64,000 bases of DNA from the NCBI RefSeq assembly GCF_003052165.1, contig NZ_CP024869.1, positions 1,212,001 to 1,276,000 on the forward strand, written 5' to 3'. Positions 24,282 to 34,843 of this stretch are shown in pieces (the first letter of the stretch is position 1; the number at the start of each line of letters is the position of its first letter). The notes beneath the pieces are model-generated. The model saw only the letters and a program-made list of their open reading frames with translations, searched no databases and was not told the origin of the DNA. This DNA comes from Dietzia sp. JS16-p6b. GTDB taxonomy: Bacteria; Actinomycetota; Actinomycetes; Mycobacteriales; Mycobacteriaceae. The translations under genes were made by a program, and so were the position numbers.

Positions 24282-24287
24282 CACACT
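24282..24287 (+). promoter_or_regulatory. -10-like hexamer before the FAD dehydrogenase
   Basis: CACACT followed by 6 nt and the ATG. No Shine-Dalgarno. Confidence 0.35.
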
Positions 24288-24293
24288 GGACTC

Positions 24294-26114
24294 ATGACCA
24301 ACTTCTCGTCGCGCCCCGGCCGCACAGCCGGGGAGGCCCGTCCCGTCCGCCCCGTCTACCCCTCGTACGCCCCGCCGTCCGCCTCGACCGCGGCCAACGC
24401 CGGGCCGCTCCCGGCTCCCGAACCCGGGTTCGAGCCCGACATCATCGTGGTGGGTCACGGGCTGGCGGGGCTGGTGGCCACCTACGAGGCGAGCCGGGCG
24501 GGCAAGAAGATTCTCGTGGTGGATCAGGAGAACGAGAAGAACCTGGGCGGGCAGGCGTACTGGTCACTCGGCGGCCTGTTCCTGGTGGACACCCCCGAGC
24601 AGCGGCGTATCGGCATTCACGACTCACTGGACCTGGCGTGGCGCGACTGGCTCGGGTCGGCCGCCTTCGACCGGCCGGAGGATCACTGGCCCCGTCGGTG
24701 GGCGCGGGCGTACGTGGAGTTCGCGGCGGGGGAGAAGCGGACGTACCTCAACGCGCTGGGGCTCAAGATCATCCCCACCGTCGGCTGGGCGGAACGTGGT
24801 GGCGGGGACGTGGGGGGCCACGGCAACTCCGTGCCGCGCTTCCACGTGACCTGGGGCACGGGGCCCGAGGTGGTGCGGATCTTCGAGGAACCGGTTCGCG
24901 CGGCCGCCGCCGAGGGGCTGGTGCGGTTCGCGGTGCGGCACCGGGTCGACGAGATCGTGGTCGAGGACGGTCGGGCGGTCGGCGTCCGCGGGGCCACCCT
25001 GGTCCCGTGCGATCTGGACCGCGGGGTGTCCTCGCCCCGCGAGGAGACCGGGACCTTCGAGTTCCGCGGCGGCGCCGTGCTCGTGTCCTCGGGCGGGATC
25101 GGCGGCAACCCGGACCTGGTGCGCCGGTACTGGCCGACGGACCGGATGGGGGACGCGCCGCGGGACCTCATCCTGGGGGTCCCGGAGCACGTCGACGGCC
25201 GCATGCTCGAGATCTCGGGCTCGGCGGGAGCGAATCTCATCAACCGCGACCGGATGTGGCACTACACCGAGGGGGTCGCCAACTTCGCGCCCATCTGGCC
25301 CTCTCACGCCATCCGCATCATCCCGGGCCCGTCGACGCTGTGGCTGGACGCCACGGGCGCGCGGATGCCCGTGCCGCTGTTCCCGGGGTTCCACACCACC
25401 GCCTCCGTCGAGGCCATCCGCCGGACCGGGTTCGACTACTCGTGGTTCGTCCTGGACTCGGCCATCGCGGAGAAGGAGTTCGTGCTCTCCGGTTCCGAGC
25501 AGAATCCGGAGATGACCGACAAGGTGGTCACGAAGTTCCTGTCCCGCGCCAAGAAGGGGCTGCCGGCGTCGGTCGGCGCATTCGCCGAGAAGGGCGTGGA
25601 CTGGGTGGTGGCCGACTCCCTGGAGGAGCTGGTCGCCGGGATGAACGAGCTGGTCGGTGGGGACGAGCCCGAGCTCGACGTGGAGAGTGTGCGTGAGTTC
25701 GTCCTGTCGATGGACGGCCAGATGGACAACCCCTTTGCCAAGGACGCGCAGGTGCAGGCCATCCACAACTCTCGCCGGGTGCTCACCGACAAGCTCACCC
25801 GCATCGCCAAGCCGCACAAGCTGCTCGCGGACTCGGGCGCCGGCAAGGGATCCGCTGCTGGCTCGGGTGGCCCGCTGATCGCGATCAAGGTGCACCTCAT
25901 GACCCGCAAGACCCTGGGCGGGATCGAGACCACGCTGGACTCCCAGTGTCTGCGACCGGACGGGGAGCCCTTCCCCGGTCTGTACGCGGCGGGGGAGGTC
26001 GCCGGTTTCGGTGGCGGCGGGGTCCACGGCTACAACTCGCTCGAGGGCACCTTCCTCGGCGGCTGCATCTTCTCCGGGATGAAGGCCGGGCGGGCGATGG
26101 CGCGGGAGGTCTGA
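24294..26114 (+). CDS. FAD-binding dehydrogenase (fumarate reductase/ketosteroid dehydrogenase fold)
   Basis: 606 residues. The N-terminal FAD dinucleotide-binding motif VVGHGLAGLVATYEASRAGKK is at about residues 50-70, after a Pro/Ala-rich leader without signal features. LGGQAYWSLGG and the C-terminal FAD motif (GLYAAGEVAGFGGGGVHGYN, then LEGTFLGGCIFSG) match the succinate dehydrogenase/fumarate reductase flavoprotein superfamily, specifically the Rv0785-type actinobacterial FAD-binding dehydrogenases. The substrate is not established; 3-ketosteroid-like dehydrogenation is possible. It lies 17 bp after the ATPase gene but probably has its own leaderless promoter. Confidence 0.88.
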   Translation: MTNFSSRPGRTAGEARPVRPVYPSYAPPSASTAANAGPLPAPEPGFEPDIIVVGHGLAGLVATYEASRAGKKILVVDQENEKNLGGQAYWSLGGLFLVDTPEQRRIGIHDSLDLAWRDWLGSAAFDRPEDHWPRRWARAYVEFAAGEKRTYLNALGLKIIPTVGWAERGGGDVGGHGNSVPRFHVTWGTGPEVVRIFEEPVRAAAAEGLVRFAVRHRVDEIVVEDGRAVGVRGATLVPCDLDRGVSSPREETGTFEFRGGAVLVSSGGIGGNPDLVRRYWPTDRMGDAPRDLILGVPEHVDGRMLEISGSAGANLINRDRMWHYTEGVANFAPIWPSHAIRIIPGPSTLWLDATGARMPVPLFPGFHTTASVEAIRRTGFDYSWFVLDSAIAEKEFVLSGSEQNPEMTDKVVTKFLSRAKKGLPASVGAFAEKGVDWVVADSLEELVAGMNELVGGDEPELDVESVREFVLSMDGQMDNPFAKDAQVQAIHNSRRVLTDKLTRIAKPHKLLADSGAGKGSAAGSGGPLIAIKVHLMTRKTLGGIETTLDSQCLRPDGEPFPGLYAAGEVAGFGGGGVHGYNSLEGTFLGGCIFSGMKAGRAMAREV

Positions 26115-26172: not shown

Positions 26173-27306
26173 TCACCGGGGCGAATTCCTCCACCGCGAC
26201 AGAACCGCGTCCATGTCCGACCGCGCTCGAGGCGGTGCCGCTCCGCGGGAGGTGCTCATCCGAGGGGCCGCGGCGGGCATCGGGTAGCCCCCCGCGTCGA
26301 CGAAGGACTCCCGCCGGACCGCGTGGTCGTGGAGCGTGGCCTCCCGGAGTGTGAGCACCGGTGTGACGCACGCGTCGAGCTCGTCGAAGACCTCGGCCCA
26401 GGCGTCGCGGTCACGCGAGGCGAACGACCGACCGAAGAGCGCGGTCAGCGCGTCCCAGTTGGTGGTGTCCCAGCGATTCGGCAGGTCGGCGTGATCCAGC
26501 CCGAGACCGCGCACGACGCGGTCATAGAACACGTCCTCGAGCGCTCCCACCGCGACGAACCCGCCGTCGGCGCACTCGTAGGCCCGGTAGAACGGTGCCG
26601 AGCCGTCGAGGAGATTGGTGCCCCGGCGGGACGACCATCGCCCGGAGTGTTGCCACGATCGGACCAGACCCGTCAGGGAACCGGCGCCGTCGACCATCGC
26701 CGCGTCCACGACCTGGCCCCGGCCCGTCCGCTGCCGCTCGTGGAGGGCGGCGAGGATCCCCACCAGCAGGAACATCGACCCTCCGCCGAAGTTGCCGACG
26801 AGGTTCAGCGGTGGTGTGGGCGGCCCGGAGGCCGGGCCGAGTTGCCCCAGGGCGCCTGACAGTGCGAGGTAGTTGATGTCGTGTCCGGCCACGCGGGCCA
26901 GCGGTCCCTCCTGTCCCCAGCCGCTCATGCGGCCGTAGATCAACCCCGGGTTCTCCTGCTGCCACACGTCGGGGCCGAGACCGAGTTTCTCCATCGTTCC
27001 CGGGCGGGACCCCTCCATCAGGACGTCGGCGCGGCCCACCAGGTCGCGCACCCGGCGCAGCCCGTCCGGTTCGGTCAGGTCGACCGCGAGCTCGGTCCTG
27101 CCCCGGAGCATTCCCGCGTTCGCGTCGTCGTTGCCGTCGTCGGCCCCCACGGGGACGGGTCGCACCACCCGGATCACCTCGGCGCCGAGGTCCGCCAGCA
27201 TGAGACCCGCGTGCAGGAGCGGCCCGATGGCCTCCATCTCCACCACCCGGAGTCCTGCCAGGGGTCCGCCGTGCGGCGCCGCGGCGGCCTCGTCCCGCAC
27301 GGTCAC
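26173..27306 (-). CDS. CaiB/BaiF-family enzyme, alpha-methylacyl-CoA racemase-like
   Basis: 377 residues. The N-terminus GPLAGLRVVE..IGP, the LADLGAEVIRV loop, the catalytic His in AGHDINYLALSGALGQ and GRGQVVDAAMVDGAGSL are characteristic of alpha-methylacyl-CoA racemases, which interconvert (2R)- and (2S)-methyl-branched acyl-CoAs in isoprenoid or sterol side-chain degradation. Formyl/acetyl-CoA-type CoA transfer is the alternative. GTG start overlapping the stop of the upstream monooxygenase gene (GTGA), so it belongs to the TetR-controlled unit. Confidence 0.88.
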   Translation of the reverse strand: MTVRDEAAAAPHGGPLAGLRVVEMEAIGPLLHAGLMLADLGAEVIRVVRPVPVGADDGNDDANAGMLRGRTELAVDLTEPDGLRRVRDLVGRADVLMEGSRPGTMEKLGLGPDVWQQENPGLIYGRMSGWGQEGPLARVAGHDINYLALSGALGQLGPASGPPTPPLNLVGNFGGGSMFLLVGILAALHERQRTGRGQVVDAAMVDGAGSLTGLVRSWQHSGRWSSRRGTNLLDGSAPFYRAYECADGGFVAVGALEDVFYDRVVRGLGLDHADLPNRWDTTNWDALTALFGRSFASRDRDAWAEVFDELDACVTPVLTLREATLHDHAVRRESFVDAGGYPMPAAAPRMSTSRGAAPPRARSDMDAVLSRWRNSPR

Positions 27307-29252
27307 CGCCCGGTGGCGGCGGCCCGGGCCGGCGTGGCGCGGACCGGTTCGGTGTGGAAGTCCGATGGGTCGACCTTGTTGGTCATGGCCCAGTAGTCGT
27401 TGATGCGCCAGGGCAGCACCGACACGACGCGACCGTCCGGGTTGCGGTACCAGTTCTCCATCGCCGGATGGGTCCACACCATCTGCGCGTGCTGCCGGTC
27501 GACGGACTCGTTGTAGCGTTCGTTGACCTCGCTGCGGCACTCCAGCGTGCCGAGGTCCTGCGTGCGCATCAGCCGTAGCGCATCCATGATGTACCTGACC
27601 TGGCATTCCAGGATGGTGATGAAGCTGCCGCCGTGGCCCAGGCCCGTGTTGGGCCCGGTCATGATGAAGAAGTTGGGGAAATCGGGAACCGTGATGCCGA
27701 GATACGCGCGCGCGTCGTGGTCCCCCCAGATCTCCCTGGTGGAGCGCCCCGATCTGCCCACGATGTCCATCGGGTAGAGGATCCGCACGCTGTGGAAGCC
27801 GGTCGCCATGACGATGATGTCCAGCTCGTGCTCGACGCCGTCTGAGTCGACCAGTCCGGAGGGCGTCACCTCCTCGACCCCGCGGGGGACCAGCGTGACC
27901 TGGGGCTTGCGCAACATCGCGAACCAGCCGTTGTCCAGCAACATCCGCTTGCCGAAGGGGGGATAGTCCGGCAGTGACGCCTCGATGAGGTCGTCGCGGT
28001 CGCCCAGTTGATCGCGGAGGTAGCGTTCGTAGAATCTGCGGTGCCCGTGGTTGGTCGCGTTGATCGAGGCGCTCGGCTCCGGCCACTCGGGGTCCACCTG
28101 GAGGGTGGGGTAGACCTTGTCGTTGAAGATCCACGACAGTCTGGCGCGGTACCACTCCCGGTACCCGGGGACGTGGTCCATCAGCCAGTGCACGTCCTCG
28201 TCGATGGTCGCGAAGTAGTCGTCGTTGGGGGCGATCCACTGCGGTGAGCGTTGGAAGACCGTCAGGGAACCGACCCGGTCCGCGATGGCCGGGCCGATCT
28301 GCATCGCGCTGGCGCCCGCCCCCACGATGCCCACCCTCTTGCCCCGCAGGGCGTCCGGCTCGTCGAGGTCGCTCGGCCACTCGGCGGAATGGAAGAGACG
28401 ACCCCGGAAACCCTCCATTCCCGGGAGGTTCGGGACCTTGGGGCGGTTGAGAAGGCCGACCGCACTGATGAGGATCGGTGCCTCCAGGACCTCCGATCCA
28501 CCGTCAGGCCGACGGACCGTCACGCGCCATGACTGCCCTGACTCGTCGAACTGCGCGCGCGTGACCTCGTGGCGGAACCGGACGTGCTGACGGATGTCGT
28601 TCGCCTCCGCGAAGGCCTCGAGGTAACCCTGGACCTCGTCGCGCTTGCCGAAGTGCGTGGACCAGTTGTGGGGGAAGGAGGAGATCGAATAAAGGTGGCT
28701 GGGGGTGTCCACCCCGGCTCCGGGATAGCGGTTCTCCCACCAGGAACCGCCCACGTCGTCGTTCTTCTCCAGGATCACGTGGGGGATGCCGGCACGGGTG
28801 AGCTCCACCGAGGCCATCATCCCCGCGATGCCGGCGCCGATCACGATCGCGTGGAGGCGCTCGTCGGGTGCGGCGGCAGCCGGCGCGATCCGCGGCCCGT
28901 TGACGATCTCCGCCATCATCGGGGCGAAGTCCGGCGGCACGGTCTCGCCGCAGGTGAAGTTGAGCAGCCGTTCGACGTCCGAGTGCCCGACCTCCGGCCG
29001 GGGAGGCCTCCCCGACTCCCACCAGCGCTCGACAGCGTCGATCACCGCGTCCTGGATCTCGGCCTGGATCCCGTCCGGAAGGCCCCCGGTCGCGTTGTCG
29101 TCCATGCCCCGACTGCGGGTGGGCTGATAGCGGGGTGCCATCCACCGCTCGTCGGCCGTCAGCTCCAGTAGGACGGCGAGCAGGGTGGGGACGTTGCCCG
29201 CGCGGACCGCCGAATGGAGGCGGCGACGGTCCGATTCAGTGACTGTGGTCAT
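27303..29252 (-). CDS. Baeyer-Villiger-type flavin monooxygenase
   Basis: NADPH/FAD-dependent insertion of oxygen next to a ketone carbonyl, giving an ester or lactone. 649 residues. FAD-binding GAGIAGMMAS, the Baeyer-Villiger fingerprint FxGxxxHxxxWP (FRGRLFHSAEWP), the NADP-binding GAGASAMQIGPAI and the ATGFH motif are all present. An N-terminal extension of about 120 residues before the FAD motif recalls 4-hydroxyacetophenone monooxygenase-type enzymes. The ATG was chosen because a promoter -10 (TAGCCT) ends 7 nt upstream; no Shine-Dalgarno exists. The next gene, an acyl-CoA racemase, overlaps its stop. Confidence 0.92.
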   Translation of the reverse strand: MTTVTESDRRRLHSAVRAGNVPTLLAVLLELTADERWMAPRYQPTRSRGMDDNATGGLPDGIQAEIQDAVIDAVERWWESGRPPRPEVGHSDVERLLNFTCGETVPPDFAPMMAEIVNGPRIAPAAAAPDERLHAIVIGAGIAGMMASVELTRAGIPHVILEKNDDVGGSWWENRYPGAGVDTPSHLYSISSFPHNWSTHFGKRDEVQGYLEAFAEANDIRQHVRFRHEVTRAQFDESGQSWRVTVRRPDGGSEVLEAPILISAVGLLNRPKVPNLPGMEGFRGRLFHSAEWPSDLDEPDALRGKRVGIVGAGASAMQIGPAIADRVGSLTVFQRSPQWIAPNDDYFATIDEDVHWLMDHVPGYREWYRARLSWIFNDKVYPTLQVDPEWPEPSASINATNHGHRRFYERYLRDQLGDRDDLIEASLPDYPPFGKRMLLDNGWFAMLRKPQVTLVPRGVEEVTPSGLVDSDGVEHELDIIVMATGFHSVRILYPMDIVGRSGRSTREIWGDHDARAYLGITVPDFPNFFIMTGPNTGLGHGGSFITILECQVRYIMDALRLMRTQDLGTLECRSEVNERYNESVDRQHAQMVWTHPAMENWYRNPDGRVVSVLPWRINDYWAMTNKVDPSDFHTEPVRATPARAAATGR

Positions 29253-29259
29253 ACGTCGC

Positions 29260-29288
29260 AGGCTAACAGCAGTTAGTCCCAGGGCCAA
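29260..29288 (-). promoter_or_regulatory. putative leaderless promoter of the monooxygenase operon
   Basis: On the minus strand TTGGCC (29283-29288), 17-bp spacer, TAGCCT (29260-29265). The predicted start of transcription falls on or next to the ATG at 29252. A TetR-type operator lies across the spacer and the -10. Confidence 0.6.
29263..29276. promoter_or_regulatory. TetR-type operator 1 (monooxygenase side)
   Basis: CTAACAGCAGTTAG, a perfect 5-bp inverted repeat around 4 bp. It overlaps the -10 of the monooxygenase promoter, a position that would block RNA polymerase. It shares the TAAC-N4-GTTA core with operators at 29381 and 33157. Confidence 0.65.
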
Positions 29289-29380
29289 GAGATTGACATC
29301 AGTCGGCGAAGAGATGCGAAGTCTGCCCGCGAGGGCGGGTTGACCACATCCGCTGGCGATGCAAGTATGAGCCAGATCAT

Positions 29381-29396
29381 ACTAACGGCGGTCAGT
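29381..29396. promoter_or_regulatory. TetR-type operator 2 (acyl-CoA synthetase side)
   Basis: ACTAACGGCGGTCAGT, an inverted repeat with one mismatch. It overlaps a -10-like CATACT (29378-29383), upstream of the acyl-CoA synthetase ATG at 29418. Confidence 0.55.
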
Positions 29397-29417
29397 GCCG
29401 CGGGAGAGTGAGAAATC

Positions 29418-31133
29418 ATGGAACAGCCGGTTCGAGTCCCCTCGAGTGCCCCCGAGTCCCGCCAGAACCCGGGGGACGGTCGCACCACGGACCGGCGCCT
29501 GACCTCCACGCAGTCCGCCCTCCTGGGACGGGCGACCCTCGGTGATCAGCTCCGGCGTCACGCGCAGAGCCGGGCCGGCAAAGCCGCGATCGTCTCCTAC
29601 GCCCCCGGTGGCGGGCGGACCGTCACCACCTACGGTGAGCTCGACCGTGGCGCCAACCGGGCTGCTCACATGCTCCTCGGACTCGGCGTGTCCCGCGGCG
29701 ACCGGGTCGCTGTGATGGCACGAAACCGTGTCGAGTCGGTCATCGCCTACTACGGAGCTCTCAAGATCGGGGCCGCCTACTCCGGGATCAACGTGCTGCT
29801 GGGGGTGGGAGAGGTGGCTCATCAGCTCGACCACCTCGAGCCCGCGGCCGTCGTCGTCGCCGCGGAGTTCCTCCCGGTCGTCCGGGCGGCGCTCGGCGAT
29901 TCCGGACACCGGCCCGAGATCATCGTGCTCGACGCCACGGCGCCTGACGGAACGGGGACCGACGGCATGGGACCCGACGGTCCGGACTCCGGCTCCACCG
30001 ATGACCCGGGGTGTCACGACTTCGACCGTCTCCTCGACTCGTCCTCGGACACGGAGCCCGAATGCGACGTCGACGAGCTCGACCTCGCGATGATCGTCTA
30101 CACGAGCGGGACCGAAGCGGCCCCCAAAGGGGTCATGCTGCCGCATCGCAACTACCTCATCTCCACCTCGCCCGCCTACACGTGGGGGTTGCGCTGCCTG
30201 GACGACGACGTCTGGCTCTTCGTCATGCCGTTCCACACGATCGCCGGCATCGGCTCGCTGACCTCGCTCATCCTGCTGGGCGCGACTCTCGTCCTCCCGG
30301 CCAGCCTCGCGCCCGCCGACGTGTTGGCGATGATCAAGACGGAGCAGATCTCGGTCCTGGCTCAGACGCCCACGTTCTTCATCTCGCTGGCGGACCATCC
30401 GGACTTCGGGCCCGACGCGGTGGGGACCATCCAGCGGTGTCTGACCTACGGGGGACAGGTCTCCCCGCGAACGGTGGACGCCTGGCACCGCGCCGCGCCG
30501 CGGTCGATCTGGGGAACCTACTGGGGCCAGTCGGAGCTGACCCAGCTGGGGTCGGTCGGCTGGTTCAGGCAACTCGAGGACGTTCCCGGGCAGGACCCCA
30601 CCTGGATCGGCAAGCCCGTCGGCCATCTGGAGGTCAAGGTGGTCGACGCCGACGGGAACGAGTCCGAGAGCGGGGAGCTCCTGTGCCGCACCCCGTCGGT
30701 GATGGCGGGGTACTTCAGGGATCCCGAGAAGACCGCCGCGGTCCTCGACGGCGGGTGGCTCCACACCGGTGACATCGTCCGACGCGATGCCGAGGGCAAC
30801 ATGTTCTTCCTCGACCGCAACAAGGACATGATCAAGACAGGGGGATACAACGTGTCCTCCCAGGAGGTCGAGCGCGTCCTCCAGGCGCACCCCGGGGTGG
30901 CGCGTGCCGCCGTCGTCGGACTCCCGGACGAGTACTGGTCCGAGGCCGTCACCGGGTTCGTCATCGCCGTCGACGGCAGCGACGTGTCGGGCCCGGAGTT
31001 GCGAGAGCACTGCAAGACGGCGCTCGCAGGATATAAGGTCCCCAAGGTGATCACGATCGTGGACGGGCTCCCGACGGACCCCCAGGGCAAGCTACTCAAG
31101 AGAGAGCTGCGCCGCCTGCACGCAAAGGACTGA
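29418..31133 (+). CDS. Acyl-CoA synthetase (class I adenylate-forming, AMP-binding)
   Basis: Activates a carboxylic acid to its CoA ester through an acyl-adenylate. 571 residues. The P-loop-like motif VYTSGTEAAPKGVMLPH, GTYWGQSE in the A5 position, the A7 Asp in LHTGDIVRRD, hinge A8, and the C-terminal catalytic Lys in GKLLKRELR are present. The substrate cannot be read from the sequence; its shared control with a monooxygenase and a methylacyl-CoA racemase suggests a branched or ketone-derived acid. ATG with GGGAGAG 10 nt upstream. The TetR gene follows after only 4 bp. Confidence 0.93.
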   Translation: MEQPVRVPSSAPESRQNPGDGRTTDRRLTSTQSALLGRATLGDQLRRHAQSRAGKAAIVSYAPGGGRTVTTYGELDRGANRAAHMLLGLGVSRGDRVAVMARNRVESVIAYYGALKIGAAYSGINVLLGVGEVAHQLDHLEPAAVVVAAEFLPVVRAALGDSGHRPEIIVLDATAPDGTGTDGMGPDGPDSGSTDDPGCHDFDRLLDSSSDTEPECDVDELDLAMIVYTSGTEAAPKGVMLPHRNYLISTSPAYTWGLRCLDDDVWLFVMPFHTIAGIGSLTSLILLGATLVLPASLAPADVLAMIKTEQISVLAQTPTFFISLADHPDFGPDAVGTIQRCLTYGGQVSPRTVDAWHRAAPRSIWGTYWGQSELTQLGSVGWFRQLEDVPGQDPTWIGKPVGHLEVKVVDADGNESESGELLCRTPSVMAGYFRDPEKTAAVLDGGWLHTGDIVRRDAEGNMFFLDRNKDMIKTGGYNVSSQEVERVLQAHPGVARAAVVGLPDEYWSEAVTGFVIAVDGSDVSGPELREHCKTALAGYKVPKVITIVDGLPTDPQGKLLKRELRRLHAKD

Positions 31134-31137
31134 GACG

Positions 31138-31713
31138 CTGAACACCGAGCCCAGCAGACGCGACTCGATACTGGCCGCGGCGGCCGAGTACTTCGCCGAG
31201 CAGGGCTACCACTCGGCGGGGATGCGCGGCATCGCCGATTCGGTGGGGATCAAGGGCGCCAGCCTGTACAACCACTTCGGTTCCAAAGAGGAGATCCTCT
31301 ACGCGATCGCACTGAAGATGACCCGTGTGCCCGTGGAGGAGAACCTGCTCGTCCTCGACGAGACCGGGACACCGACCGAGCGGCTCACCGCCCTGATCGA
31401 CGTCCACCTCCGCCACCTCGCGGTGAACCGTGTGGAGCATCTGGTGAGCCTACGGGAGCTCTCCGCGCTCACGGAGGAACACCGTGACCGCGTGGTCGGG
31501 TACCGCAAGTACTACCAGCGACGGGTGCGCGACGTGATCGCCGCGGGCATCCGCGCCGGGGAGTTCGGCGTCGACGACCCGATGCGTGCGGCCGTCGCGA
31601 TCCTGGACCTCATGAACGGCGTGAGCTGGTGGCTGCGGGACGACTACGACATCGACTCCCTGGTCTCCACCTACGTGGACTACATCGTCGACGGGATCCT
31701 CCGGCGCAGGTGA
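31138..31713 (+). CDS. TetR/AcrR-family transcriptional regulator with apparent CTG start
   Basis: 191 residues if begun at CTG 31138. The first ATG in frame (31222) would delete the start of the DNA-binding domain. The complete TetR helix-turn-helix needs SRRDSILAAAAEYFAEQGY, encoded upstream of that ATG. CTG is the only near-cognate start before an in-frame stop at 31048, and AAAGGA ends 8 nt before it. Helix-turn-helix: MRGIADSVGIKGASLYNHFGSKEEIL. The C-terminal ligand domain resembles KstR2-type regulators in layout. It follows the acyl-CoA synthetase by 4 bp and is the obvious candidate to bind the three TAAC-N4-GTTA dyads. Confidence 0.88.
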   Translation: MNTEPSRRDSILAAAAEYFAEQGYHSAGMRGIADSVGIKGASLYNHFGSKEEILYAIALKMTRVPVEENLLVLDETGTPTERLTALIDVHLRHLAVNRVEHLVSLRELSALTEEHRDRVVGYRKYYQRRVRDVIAAGIRAGEFGVDDPMRAAVAILDLMNGVSWWLRDDYDIDSLVSTYVDYIVDGILRRR

Positions 31714-31847
31714 GGGGTCCGCGGTGGCGCGGATGAGGTGGCCCCGGTGGCGCCGTCGCCCCCGCGCACCCTACGAGAACCGGCCCCCTTGTCGCCGCTG
31801 GCGAGAAGGGGGCCGGATCACGTGGCGTTGCGGGTCTGTGTCTTCTC

Positions 31848-33017
31848 TCAGAGCGCGCGACGCAGCAGGGGGACCAGCGCGTCGGCGTCCGCGATCGGGT
31901 TCGGGTTGGTCCCGCACCAGATGTCCTTGAAGGTGTACGCGGCTAGGCTGGACAGGTCGTCCTCGGACAGTCCGACCTCGGTGAGCGACCGCGGCATGCC
32001 CAGCCGCCTGATGAGCGCGTCGGCGAGCTCGTGCGCAGGTGTCTGCGGCTCGCCGAACGCCACGCTGATCAGCGCCTGGCGATGTTCGTTGACCTCCCGG
32101 TTGTACTCCAGGGCGAACGGCGCCATCACGCAGGAGGTGTGTCCGTGCGGGACCTTGAACGACCCTCCGAGCGCATGCCCGACCGCGTGGCTGATACCCA
32201 TGTCCAGGCCGGCGACGATCGCGACCATCGACGACCAGGCTCCGACCTGGCACATCCGCCTGGCCTCCAGGTCATCGCCGTCCTCCTTCACCCGGACGAG
32301 GCCCTCGGAGAGCAGGCGGATGGCGTTCATCGCCATCCCGTCGTAGTACCCGTTCGACTCGAGTGACCCCAGGGTCTCGAAGGCGTGATCGAGAGCGCGC
32401 ACCCCGGTCGAGAGCCAGAGCCATTCCGGGGTGTGCCGGGTGAGCGCGGGATCGAGGATGACGGCCCGCGGGGTCATCGCCGGATGGACGTACCCCTCCT
32501 TGACATTGCTCTCCTCGTCCGTTGATCCCGCCAGCGCGTTGAACTCGCCTCCGGCCAGCGTCGTGGGGGCCACCACCACGGGGATGCTCGGGGCCGAGAA
32601 ACTCGGGGCGGTCACCGAGGTGTCGGGGTTGACCTGCAGGTGGTAGGCGTCCACCTCGGAGGTTGTGCGGATCCCGTGCTCCAGGGTCACCGCGAGGATC
32701 TTCGTCAGGTCCGTCGCCGAGCCGCCGCCGACACACAGCAGCATGTCCGGATCCGCCTCGGCCGCGACCAGGGTCGCCGCGATGACGTCCTGGCGGGGCA
32801 CGTGGGGCCGGACCGCGTCGAACAGGCCGACGAACCGATCACCCAGGGCCTCGATCACCCGTCGGATCTCGTCGGTCTGGGAGTTCAGGGTCCCACTGCA
32901 GACCACGAAGACCCGGCTCGCGCCGAGGAGCTCCGCTTCCTGCGCCGCGGCCTCCGCGACCGGGGTCCCGATATGGACTCTCTCCATGGGGGTCAGAGAG
33001 ATGAGTGATGACTGCAC
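31848..33017 (-). CDS. Iron-containing alcohol dehydrogenase (maleylacetate reductase-like)
   Basis: Group III NAD(P)-dependent alcohol dehydrogenase. 389 residues. The nucleotide-binding GGGSATDLTK, substrate-domain PTTLAGGEF, and metal-ligand histidines in ALDHAFE and SHAVGHALGGSFKVPHGH are as expected. Whether it oxidises a secondary alcohol or reduces maleylacetate-type substrates is open; the TAAGxE segment is closest to maleylacetate reductases. The GTG at 33017 has GAAGGA about 10 nt upstream; the frame remains open to 33068. It is convergent to the TetR gene and shares the operator motif of the cluster. Confidence 0.88.
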   Translation of the reverse strand: MQSSLISLTPMERVHIGTPVAEAAAQEAELLGASRVFVVCSGTLNSQTDEIRRVIEALGDRFVGLFDAVRPHVPRQDVIAATLVAAEADPDMLLCVGGGSATDLTKILAVTLEHGIRTTSEVDAYHLQVNPDTSVTAPSFSAPSIPVVVAPTTLAGGEFNALAGSTDEESNVKEGYVHPAMTPRAVILDPALTRHTPEWLWLSTGVRALDHAFETLGSLESNGYYDGMAMNAIRLLSEGLVRVKEDGDDLEARRMCQVGAWSSMVAIVAGLDMGISHAVGHALGGSFKVPHGHTSCVMAPFALEYNREVNEHRQALISVAFGEPQTPAHELADALIRRLGMPRSLTEVGLSEDDLSSLAAYTFKDIWCGTNPNPIADADALVPLLRRAL

Positions 33018-33153
33018 GGCGGCACCGTCCTTCGTTGTTGTCCTCGACCCCCGTGTCCGCCAGAACACTGTGTCCGAGGGAGCACGGTGTCACTCCGACG
33101 ATGACGCGGGGGCCGAGCTGGGGTCGGGCGTAGCGCGTTTTTCGTGCCGCCCA

Positions 33154-33182
33154 AGGCTAACAGTCGTTACCCTACAGGAGAA
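33154..33182 (-). promoter_or_regulatory. putative promoter of the iron-alcohol dehydrogenase gene
   Basis: On the minus strand TTCTCC (33177-33182), 17-bp spacer, TAGCCT (33154-33159). The -10 and spacing are identical to those of the monooxygenase promoter. Confidence 0.5.
33157..33170. promoter_or_regulatory. TetR-type operator 3 (iron-alcohol dehydrogenase)
   Basis: CTAACAGTCGTTAC with the core TAAC-AGTC-GTTA. It overlaps the -10 in exactly the same register as operator 1. Confidence 0.62.
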
Positions 33183-33183
33183 T

Positions 33184-33199
33184 TGTGGCCCAGGCCACA
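33184..33199. promoter_or_regulatory. CRP/GlxR-like palindrome
   Basis: TGTGGCCCAGGCCACA, a 16-bp inverted repeat of the TGTG-N8-CACA type. It sits just upstream of the -35 of the dehydrogenase promoter, centred about 45 bp before the predicted start, close to a class II activator position. A T-run follows on the plus strand, so a hairpin terminator is an alternative reading. Confidence 0.45.
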
Positions 33200-33373
33200 G
33201 TCTTTTTGCGGTGGCGATGCGCAGCGCTTCGGGAGGGGCTGGGGATTCCCACAAGGTGTTCTGTGCAGGAACTTAAGGTCGCCGTCAGTATTGGTCCGGA
33301 CCGGATTGCGTCTCGGCTCGCGTCCGCACACCCACCTGCCCGGTGACGGCGCTCACATCTGGAGGGGCTAACG

Positions 33374-34843
33374 GTGGATCGCTTCGATGGGGGTCGATGC
33401 CGGGACATGAGTCCGCGGTGCCGGCACGTGGGTCTACAGTCTCACTTCGTGACTGATGGTGACAGACGGGTCTGGCCGTCCGGGCTTCGGCGGTGGTCCG
33501 GCTGGGTGGTGCTGAGCCCGGTCCGGGTCGTGGCGATGAGCTTCGCCGCTGCGATCGTGGTGGGCACGGCGCTGTTGCTCCTGCCCGGAGCCGTCGAGCC
33601 CGGGAGCAGTACCGGGTTCACCGAGGCGCTGTTCACCTCGACGTCGGCGATGTGTCTGACGGGGCTGATCGTCGTGGACACCCCGGTGCACTGGTCGGGG
33701 TTCGGTCAGGTGGTCATCCTCGCCCTGATCCAGGTCGGCGGCCTGGGGATCATGACCATGGCCTCGATGGTCGGGCTGGTGCTGGCCGATCAGATCGGGC
33801 TCAAGGCCCGGATGAACACCGCGGCAGAGGCCCGTGCCTCCGAACTCGGCGACGTCCGCGACGTCGTCATCGGCGTGATCCGGCTGAGCATCGGGATCGA
33901 ACTCGTCACCGCCGCCGCGCTGGCACTCCGCTTCGCCCTGGGCTACGACGAGCCCGTGCTGCGGGCCCTCTGGCTCGGGGTGTTCCACTCCATCTCGTCG
34001 TTCAACAACGCCGGGTTCGCGCTCTACAGCGACAACATGATCGGGTTCGCCACCGACCCGTGGATCTGTGTCCCCCTGATGGTCGCGGTGATCCTGGGTG
34101 GCCTGGGGTTCCCGGTCCTGTTCGAGATCGGCCGGCGGCTCCGGCGCAGGCCTCCCCGCAGCCGGTCGCGGGCGGGGTGGACGCTGCACACGCGCCTGAC
34201 CGTCTCGGTGACGGCGGTGCTGCTGGCCCTCGGGTTCGGAGCTGTCCTGGCGTTGGAGTGGGCCCGCACCCTCCAGGGGTACAACGCGGCGGAGAAGGTC
34301 CTGGTGGCGGCGTTCCAGGGCGTGATGCCCCGGACCGCCGGGTTCAACAGTGTCGACTACGCCGACCTGGACGACGCGACGTTGCTCGTCACCGATGTGC
34401 TGATGTTCATCGGCGGGGGCAGCGGCGGCACCGCCGGCGGGATCAAGGTGACCACCTTCGCCCTGCTGCTGTTCATCATCATCGCCGAGGTCCGCGGCGA
34501 GCGGTCGGTGACCATTCTCGACCGTCGCGTCGACACCCGGGTGCAGCGACAGGCACTCGCGGTGGCGCTGATCGGGATCGGGCTCGTCACGACCTCGACG
34601 ATCGTGCTGCTCGCCGGCACGCCGTTCGGCCTCAACGAGTTGCTCTTCGAGGTGACCTCCGCGTTCGCCACGGTGGGATTGTCCACGGGGATCACCGCCG
34701 AACTGCCCCACTGGGGGCAGTGGATACTGATACTGCTCATGTACCTCGGCCGCATCGGCCCGATCACCATGGTCAGTGCACTGGCCGCGCGACAGCGTGG
34801 CCGACGGTACGACCTTCCCGCAGAAAGGCCCCTCATTGGCTAG
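33374..34843 (+). CDS. TrkH/KtrB-family potassium uptake membrane subunit
   Basis: Ion-conducting subunit of a K+ (or Na+/K+) transporter. 489 residues. The four pore-loop signatures are visible: TSTSAMCLTGLIV, SSFNNAGFALYS, MPRTAGFNS and AFATVGLSTGIT, separated by paired membrane helices as in TrkH/KtrB. The GTG at 33374 has GGAGGGG 7 nt upstream; the first 25 residues look non-conserved, so a GTG at 33449 is possible. The regulatory subunit follows immediately with overlapping ends. Confidence 0.93.
   Translation: MDRFDGGRCRDMSPRCRHVGLQSHFVTDGDRRVWPSGLRRWSGWVVLSPVRVVAMSFAAAIVVGTALLLLPGAVEPGSSTGFTEALFTSTSAMCLTGLIVVDTPVHWSGFGQVVILALIQVGGLGIMTMASMVGLVLADQIGLKARMNTAAEARASELGDVRDVVIGVIRLSIGIELVTAAALALRFALGYDEPVLRALWLGVFHSISSFNNAGFALYSDNMIGFATDPWICVPLMVAVILGGLGFPVLFEIGRRLRRRPPRSRSRAGWTLHTRLTVSVTAVLLALGFGAVLALEWARTLQGYNAAEKVLVAAFQGVMPRTAGFNSVDYADLDDATLLVTDVLMFIGGGSGGTAGGIKVTTFALLLFIIIAEVRGERSVTILDRRVDTRVQRQALAVALIGIGLVTTSTIVLLAGTPFGLNELLFEVTSAFATVGLSTGITAELPHWGQWILILLMYLGRIGPITMVSALAARQRGRRYDLPAERPLIG

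Follow-up and report, generated by a model that had tools for sequence, protein, structure and literature searches.

Putative operators of a local TetR-family repressor in a Baeyer-Villiger monooxygenase gene cluster of Dietzia

Introduction

The natural substrates of most Baeyer-Villiger monooxygenases (BVMOs) are unknown, according to two papers (PMC4498894, PMC12724338). Where a conserved operator is tied to one regulator and one gene set, the compound that releases the repressor points to the substrate of the pathway. This question is raised by a locus in a stretch of 64,000 nucleotides from Dietzia sp. JS16-p6b, the window analysed here, in which copies of the dyad CTAAC-N4-GTTAG stand before a BVMO gene, an acyl-CoA synthetase gene and an alcohol dehydrogenase gene: are they the operators of a single TetR-family repressor, encoded among these genes, that also controls itself? 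The computation shows where the sites lie, how rare they are in the genome, how well they are conserved and how they stand to promoter-like elements that are themselves conserved. The best reading of the sequence, to which we give a probability of about 0.86, is that a local TetR repressor of a ketone/acid-catabolism cluster would bind CTAAC-N4-GTTAG and would control its own operon as well.

Gene content of the cluster

The genes of the cluster are arranged as follows:
26173..27306, minus strand: CoA-transferase family III protein, alpha-methylacyl-CoA racemase-like; its GTG start (placed by eye) overlaps the BVMO stop
27303..29252, minus strand: type I Baeyer-Villiger monooxygenase (BVMO), 649 aa; about 130 residues precede the FAD motif
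29418..31133, plus strand: AMP-forming acyl-CoA synthetase, 571 aa
31138..31713, plus strand: TetR-family repressor, 191 aa, starting four bases past the synthetase stop; Pfam TetR_N and TetR_C_24
31848..33017, minus strand: iron-containing alcohol dehydrogenase, probably beginning with the GTG at 33017 (placed by eye), although the longest ORF extends to 33068

These neighbours are the ones that an earlier note on this DNA had read, namely a BVMO/racemase pair, an acyl-CoA synthetase with TetR, and an iron-alcohol dehydrogenase; their content suggests a role in ketone or branched-acid catabolism. The BVMO carries the fingerprint FxGxxxHxxxW(P/D), present in the window as FRGRLFHSAEWP (FxGxxxHxxxWP), and the pattern is retained in all 62 loci listed, duplicates included. 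No solved structural relatives of the synthetase were found at E 1e-60 or better.

The catalytic residues of MCR, the racemase of M. tuberculosis, are His, Asp and Glu. The CoA-transferase family III protein is related to MCR over its full length (E ~1e-108 to 1x74 and others). In the window protein the His and the Glu are retained, while Asn stands where MCR has its Asp, so that racemase activity is not to be assumed and the protein is classed as MCR-like. The label ‘racemase’ in the earlier note thus holds as a resemblance to MCR, but not for the catalytic set. Wherever a listed dehydrogenase-type cluster has the gene, the same Asn is present, as it is in L163/L164; no MCR-like gene was found in the dehydrogenase-type cluster L161. 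Where an MCR-like gene follows TetR, the Asp is present and the Glu is mostly lost.

Of 401 family genomes, 9 carry the dehydrogenase gene (E ≤1e-130); among 47 loci compared, 40 have a nitroreductase-like gene and 7 the dehydrogenase, the nitroreductase class resting on Pfam for one member. Baeyer-Villiger pathways need a hydrolase-type step once the ester or lactone has formed. A serine hydrolase gene, a candidate esterase for the BVMO product, was observed 0–39 bases past TetR in 21 loci of another cluster type, 17 of them distinct (L186-L197, L042, L043, L050, L051, L054-L058; PF00144 on the one member tested). Directly left of the cluster in the window lies a gene for an FAD-binding dehydrogenase (24285-26114; NF009472), related to ketosteroid dehydrogenases, with no operator-like site near it among the matches listed.

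Rarity and clustering of the dyad

The following sites were located:
29263..29276: site 1 (O1), CTAACAGCAGTTAG, a perfect dyad, in the putative BVMO promoter
29382..29395: site 2 (O2), CTAACGGCGGTCAG, left half intact and right half degenerate, 3' of the putative synthetase-TetR promoter
33157..33170: site 3 (O3), CTAACAGTCGTTAC, covering the putative iron-dehydrogenase promoter
33368..33381: site 4 (O4), CTAACGGTGGATCG, weak, 211 bp from site 3

All three sequences singled out in the earlier note were found in place (29263-29276; 29382-29395, with the note's 16-mer starting at 29381; 33157-33170), but that set was incomplete, lacking the weaker fourth site at 33368-33381. The 3.72 Mb single-contig genome has seven places that match CTAAC-N4-GTTAG with no more than one mismatch; three of these are sites 1–3, and site 1 is the only perfect copy. 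Taking the other four as background, the Poisson probability of at least three one-mismatch sites within 3.9 kb is ~1e-8. This clustering is real and far above chance. The earlier note had proposed a motif search of the whole genome; what emerged was the concentration of three of the seven places here, but no genome-wide enrichment, as a reversed control pattern is commoner (15 places versus 7 at up to one mismatch), so that it is the clustering that stands out. Within the window alone and with up to two mismatches, 5 matches were observed against 3.4 expected, which is not significant.

Extent of the putative regulon

Within the genus, 5 of 23 genomes carry a TetR orthologue, and among the genomes sampled from the family, 55 of 401 do (E ≤1e-45). 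One-mismatch sites outside the cluster average 3.0 in the 5 carriers of the genus and 3.06 in the 18 non-carriers, and this equality is the main reason why the regulon looks local. Of the four such sites in the present genome, three lie inside ORFs of a mechanical list (L004, L006, L007) and one (L005) does not. Their sequences were compared among the matches listed, with G005 and G011 represented by counts and G009 in part. Among these matches, the site at 2155653 recurs identically in the non-carrier G016, which argues against a TetR role for it, and the site at 2496968 (L006, 1501-1514) has a copy in the carrier G013 with one central base changed. The latter, by eye, lies upstream of an acyl-CoA carboxylase-like gene and resembles a DtxR/IdeR box; it is a possible further member of the regulon.

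Elsewhere, an extra operator-like pair precedes genes for a metallo-beta-lactamase-fold hydrolase and a cytochrome P450 in the more distant cluster L185 (oriented 3160 and 3300), and may extend the regulon in that genome. Perfect CTAAC-N4-GTTAG dyads were also observed on contigs of more distant TetR genes (L059 at 335, L061 at 6974, L111 at 6610, L115 at 1335 and 1360), three of these from other phyla; in L059, the gene next to the perfect site looks acyl-CoA dehydrogenase-like by eye.

Conservation of the sites

Loci were taken from 45 of the 55 family genomes with a TetR orthologue, the window among them, and from G054, which belongs to another family of the same order. A further 16 were drawn from a set of 80 loci of named genomes; L059 was dropped (no monooxygenase) and seven others were copies. 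After removal of copies, 55 distinct orthologous clusters were compared, from the same genus, Rhodococcus, Williamsia, Pseudonocardia, Nocardioides and others. Between the BVMO and its divergent partner operon, where the promoters lie, there is at least one site in all 55 and there are at least two in 54; in L047, the lone cluster without a second site, the sequence at the site 2 position is more degenerate. The clusters were gathered through TetR (sites 3 and 4 through the dehydrogenase) and include no TetR-less control, so that the association of TetR with the sites follows in part from the sampling; the evidence independent of this collection consists of the rarity of the motif in the genome, the like number of background sites in non-carriers, and sites 3 and 4.

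Strict matches are confined almost entirely to the expected places: 91 were counted in 40 loci (642,626 bases), 80 at sites 1/2, 8 at sites 3/4 and 3 elsewhere (two in L185, one in L191). Site 3 is present in all 9 clusters with the iron-dependent dehydrogenase. Genome G207 has two TetR copies in two clusters (L161, L162), one of dehydrogenase type and one of nitroreductase type, each with its own pair of sites. On this comparison, the putative operator sites are unusually well conserved across actinobacteria, and the type of control is itself ordinary.

Position of the sites relative to promoters

The promoter-like elements next to sites 1–3 are:
29260..29288, minus strand: putative BVMO promoter, TTGGCC-N17-TAGCCT
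29340..29368, plus strand: putative synthetase-TetR promoter, TTGACC-N17-AAGTAT, upstream of site 2
33154..33182, minus strand: putative dehydrogenase promoter, TTCTCC-N17-TAGCCT

The shared TTnnCC-N17-TAGCCT register reported for sites 1 and 3 was confirmed without deviation at 29288-29260 and 33182-33154 on the minus strand. The accompanying statement that each site overlaps a putative -10 applies to these two but not to site 2, which lies just downstream of a conserved promoter with TTGAC 41-45 bp upstream. On the BVMO strand, site 1 is situated between the -35 and the -10, with TAGCCT partly made up of its right half. Across the 55 clusters, TANNNT is in place in 38, and TTG lies 11-14 bp 5' of the site in 45. 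The BVMO ATG begins seven bases past the TAGCCT -10, a distance so short that the transcript is probably leaderless; an ATG or GTG, counted irrespective of frame, occurs 4-9 nt past the hexamer in 37/55 clusters.

Among the 51 clusters listed for site 2, the element 41-45 bp upstream is TTGAC in 50 and TTGAT in one, followed 16-18 bp later by an nAnnnT hexamer in all 51 (in L190 via a second TTGAC). With just two fixed letters in the hexamer, the -10 of this promoter is weakly tested; the conserved positions of both elements would place site 2 at roughly +6 to +20. CATACT was rejected as the -10 at site 2, being not conserved, whereas TTGAC and the hexamer are. At site 3, the operator overlaps both -10 candidates, TAGCCT and TAGGGT (33174-33169).

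A possible distal site of the dehydrogenase promoter

Site 4 was found in 9/9 dehydrogenase-type clusters, 193-221 bp from site 3, with CTAAC-N4-GnnnG in all nine. The intervening stretch is not conserved, except for a second dyad beside site 3, and the genes beyond site 4 differ among these clusters. Upstream of trkH, the next gene in the window, CTAAC-N4-G is absent in six relatives without the cluster and in a weak homologue (searched in one orientation; 254 bases for L202). The variable stretch, the differing flanking genes and the lack of the half-site at trkH of the relatives together make site 4 seem to be the cluster's own. Its assignment to the trkH promoter was rejected on the six cluster-less relatives.

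Could site 4 instead be no operator, but a half-site that arose by chance or was left behind where the transferred segment ends? We consider this doubtful, while giving it real weight: its right half is degenerate, its spacing from site 3 ranges over 28 bp, and neither a promoter nor a gene was seen to be conserved next to it. Set against these points is its recurrence in every dehydrogenase-type cluster, in about five lineages by our own grouping, across unconserved sequence, and the rate of 0.003-0.006 per 45-bp window at which a composition model yields a comparable match, the window having been picked after inspection of the data. If site 4 does act with site 3, an auxiliary operator is proposed and a rigid loop is not, since arithmetic on the spacings gave no constant helical phase and the distances are not kept to whole helical turns.

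33184..33199: second dyad, TGTGGCCCAGGCCACA, TGTGG-N6-CCACA, beside site 3

This dyad possibly serves another regulator. It is present in 9/9 dehydrogenase-type clusters and has one exact match in the genome. TGTGG-N6-CCACA was also observed upstream of site 2, inside the partner promoter, in another cluster type, at 16 loci of which 12 are distinct (L050, L051, L057, L188-L195, L197 and others).

On the other side of the interval, GGTGACGGCGCTCACA at 33342-33357 lies 10 bp from site 4, an arrangement similar to that in L038, and is a CRP/GlxR-like site; sites of this type with up to one mismatch occur at 59 places in the genome versus 15 for a reversed control. The trkH promoter region (33382-33449, GGTCTAC then GTGAC) is conserved in most cluster-less relatives, so the cluster may be inserted upstream of trkH. 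The trkH gene also looks leaderless.

The predicted repressor and a proposed mechanism

The predicted repressor belongs to the TetR family by its domains (TetR_N, E 1.1e-15; TetR_C_24, E 3.7e-25). Its predicted model has nine helices (pLDDT 90.7), and close solved folds include PfmR, AibR and KstR2. A family trait is also visible at the sequence level, in palindromic sites at or near promoters, that of its own operon included. No in-frame ATG, GTG or TTG was found upstream of 31138 in the window, L038 or L039, and the CTG at that position is for this reason likely the start; in L040 and L041, such codons occur far 5' only, inside the synthetase gene. At the TetR start, AAGGA and the context GACGCTGAACACCGA are common to all five carriers of the genus.

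The mechanism that we infer comprises TetR binding, induction by a CoA-thioester, an order of the pathway and a role for site 4. A dimer of the 191-residue protein would bind CTAAC-N4-GTTAG. At site 1, it would cover the -10 and spacer of the BVMO-CoA-transferase transcript; at site 2, it would sit just past the start of the synthetase-TetR transcript and would in this way also repress itself; at site 3, it would cover the promoter of the iron-dependent alcohol dehydrogenase, for which site 4, ~200 bp upstream, is probably an auxiliary operator. With substrate present, the synthetase would make an acyl-CoA, which most likely enters the C-terminal pocket of the repressor and causes release from DNA. 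The pathway would run from alcohol to ketone, ester, acid and acyl-CoA. The earlier note had taken a single local, self-regulating repressor as the simplest reading, and the presence of sites in the same promoter region in 55/55 TetR clusters, together with outside counts of 3.0 versus 3.06, supports it.

By analogy, the repressor probably senses a CoA-thioester of the pathway: several close relatives were solved with such ligands (AibR with isovaleryl-CoA, FadR with stearoyl- or lauroyl-CoA), and the synthetase gene directly precedes the repressor gene in nearly all clusters, with L049 and L053 as exceptions. That the repressor is real but responds to the ketone, the alcohol, or the ester or acid before activation is unlikely against this evidence, even though the TetR protein EthR was solved with synthetic non-CoA compounds (by structure titles) and DarR with c-di-AMP. 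It is highly improbable that the sites are real operators of another TetR-family protein while the neighbouring one regulates something else: the genome has 20 matches to this TetR at E ≤0.001, itself included, and distant TetR genes share contigs with perfect sites, so that such specificity is not peculiar to a single protein, but the next-best match in the genome is only 31% identical, the sites accompany this TetR in all its clusters (not a strict test, the clusters having been collected via TetR), and a global regulator common to both would not be expected to leave carriers and non-carriers with the same number of sites elsewhere.

Returning to a local repressor released by an acyl-CoA, a broader reading can be put forward tentatively, at somewhat less than even odds. 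This TetR would define a widespread, unrecognised actinobacterial ketone-assimilation module, made of the monooxygenase, the acyl-CoA synthetase, an MCR-like protein or serine hydrolase, and a nitroreductase-like enzyme or iron dehydrogenase. Its own acyl-CoA product would switch it through a divergent promoter with two operators; clusters of the dehydrogenase type would in addition use a pair of operators, one at the promoter and one distal, next to TGTGG-N6-CCACA as the dyad of another regulator. If this is true, the identity of the inducer could reveal the natural substrate of the BVMO group. The sites could also be used as an inducible promoter or biosensor.

Relation to known systems

In M. 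tuberculosis, EthR is a TetR repressor of a divergent Baeyer-Villiger monooxygenase gene (EthA), and the present cluster shares with it a predicted TetR repressor of a divergent BVMO gene. AibR, KstR2, FadR and PfmR are 22-31% identical in sequence to the TetR described here and have different target genes; their operators also differ from CTAAC-N4-GTTAG. In the open-access literature searched, no paper on this regulator or its sites was found. Two known enzymes look different from the 649-aa BVMO: R. erythropolis XP has BVMO_4041, of 524 aa, and Dietzia D5 has BVMO4, whose primer misfits the start of the BVMO gene. A Dietzia CN-3 transcriptome is reported to include a pair of monooxygenase genes, with upregulation of one on hexadecane and pristane; neither could be linked to the cluster.

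AlkX of Dietzia is likewise described as a self-regulating TetR repressor of a hydrocarbon-breakdown monooxygenase in an actinomycete (PMC12472514); the AlkX target, alkW1, is another enzyme. A parallel in the operator is offered by PaaR (TTHA0973) of Thermus thermophilus, a TetR-family repressor with the 14-bp operator CNAACGNNCGTTNG. It represses two operons, its own and one that includes a CoA ligase, and its reported effector is phenylacetyl-CoA (PMC6651687). Compared with CNAACGNNCGTTNG, sites 1 and 3 have the AAC-N4-GTT core, and the right half of site 2 reads GTC. PaaR differs in controlling phenylacetate degradation and not a monooxygenase cluster, and its selected consensus is AACnAACGTTnGTT (PMC6651687), whereas the four central bases are variable here; the likeness is one of operators.
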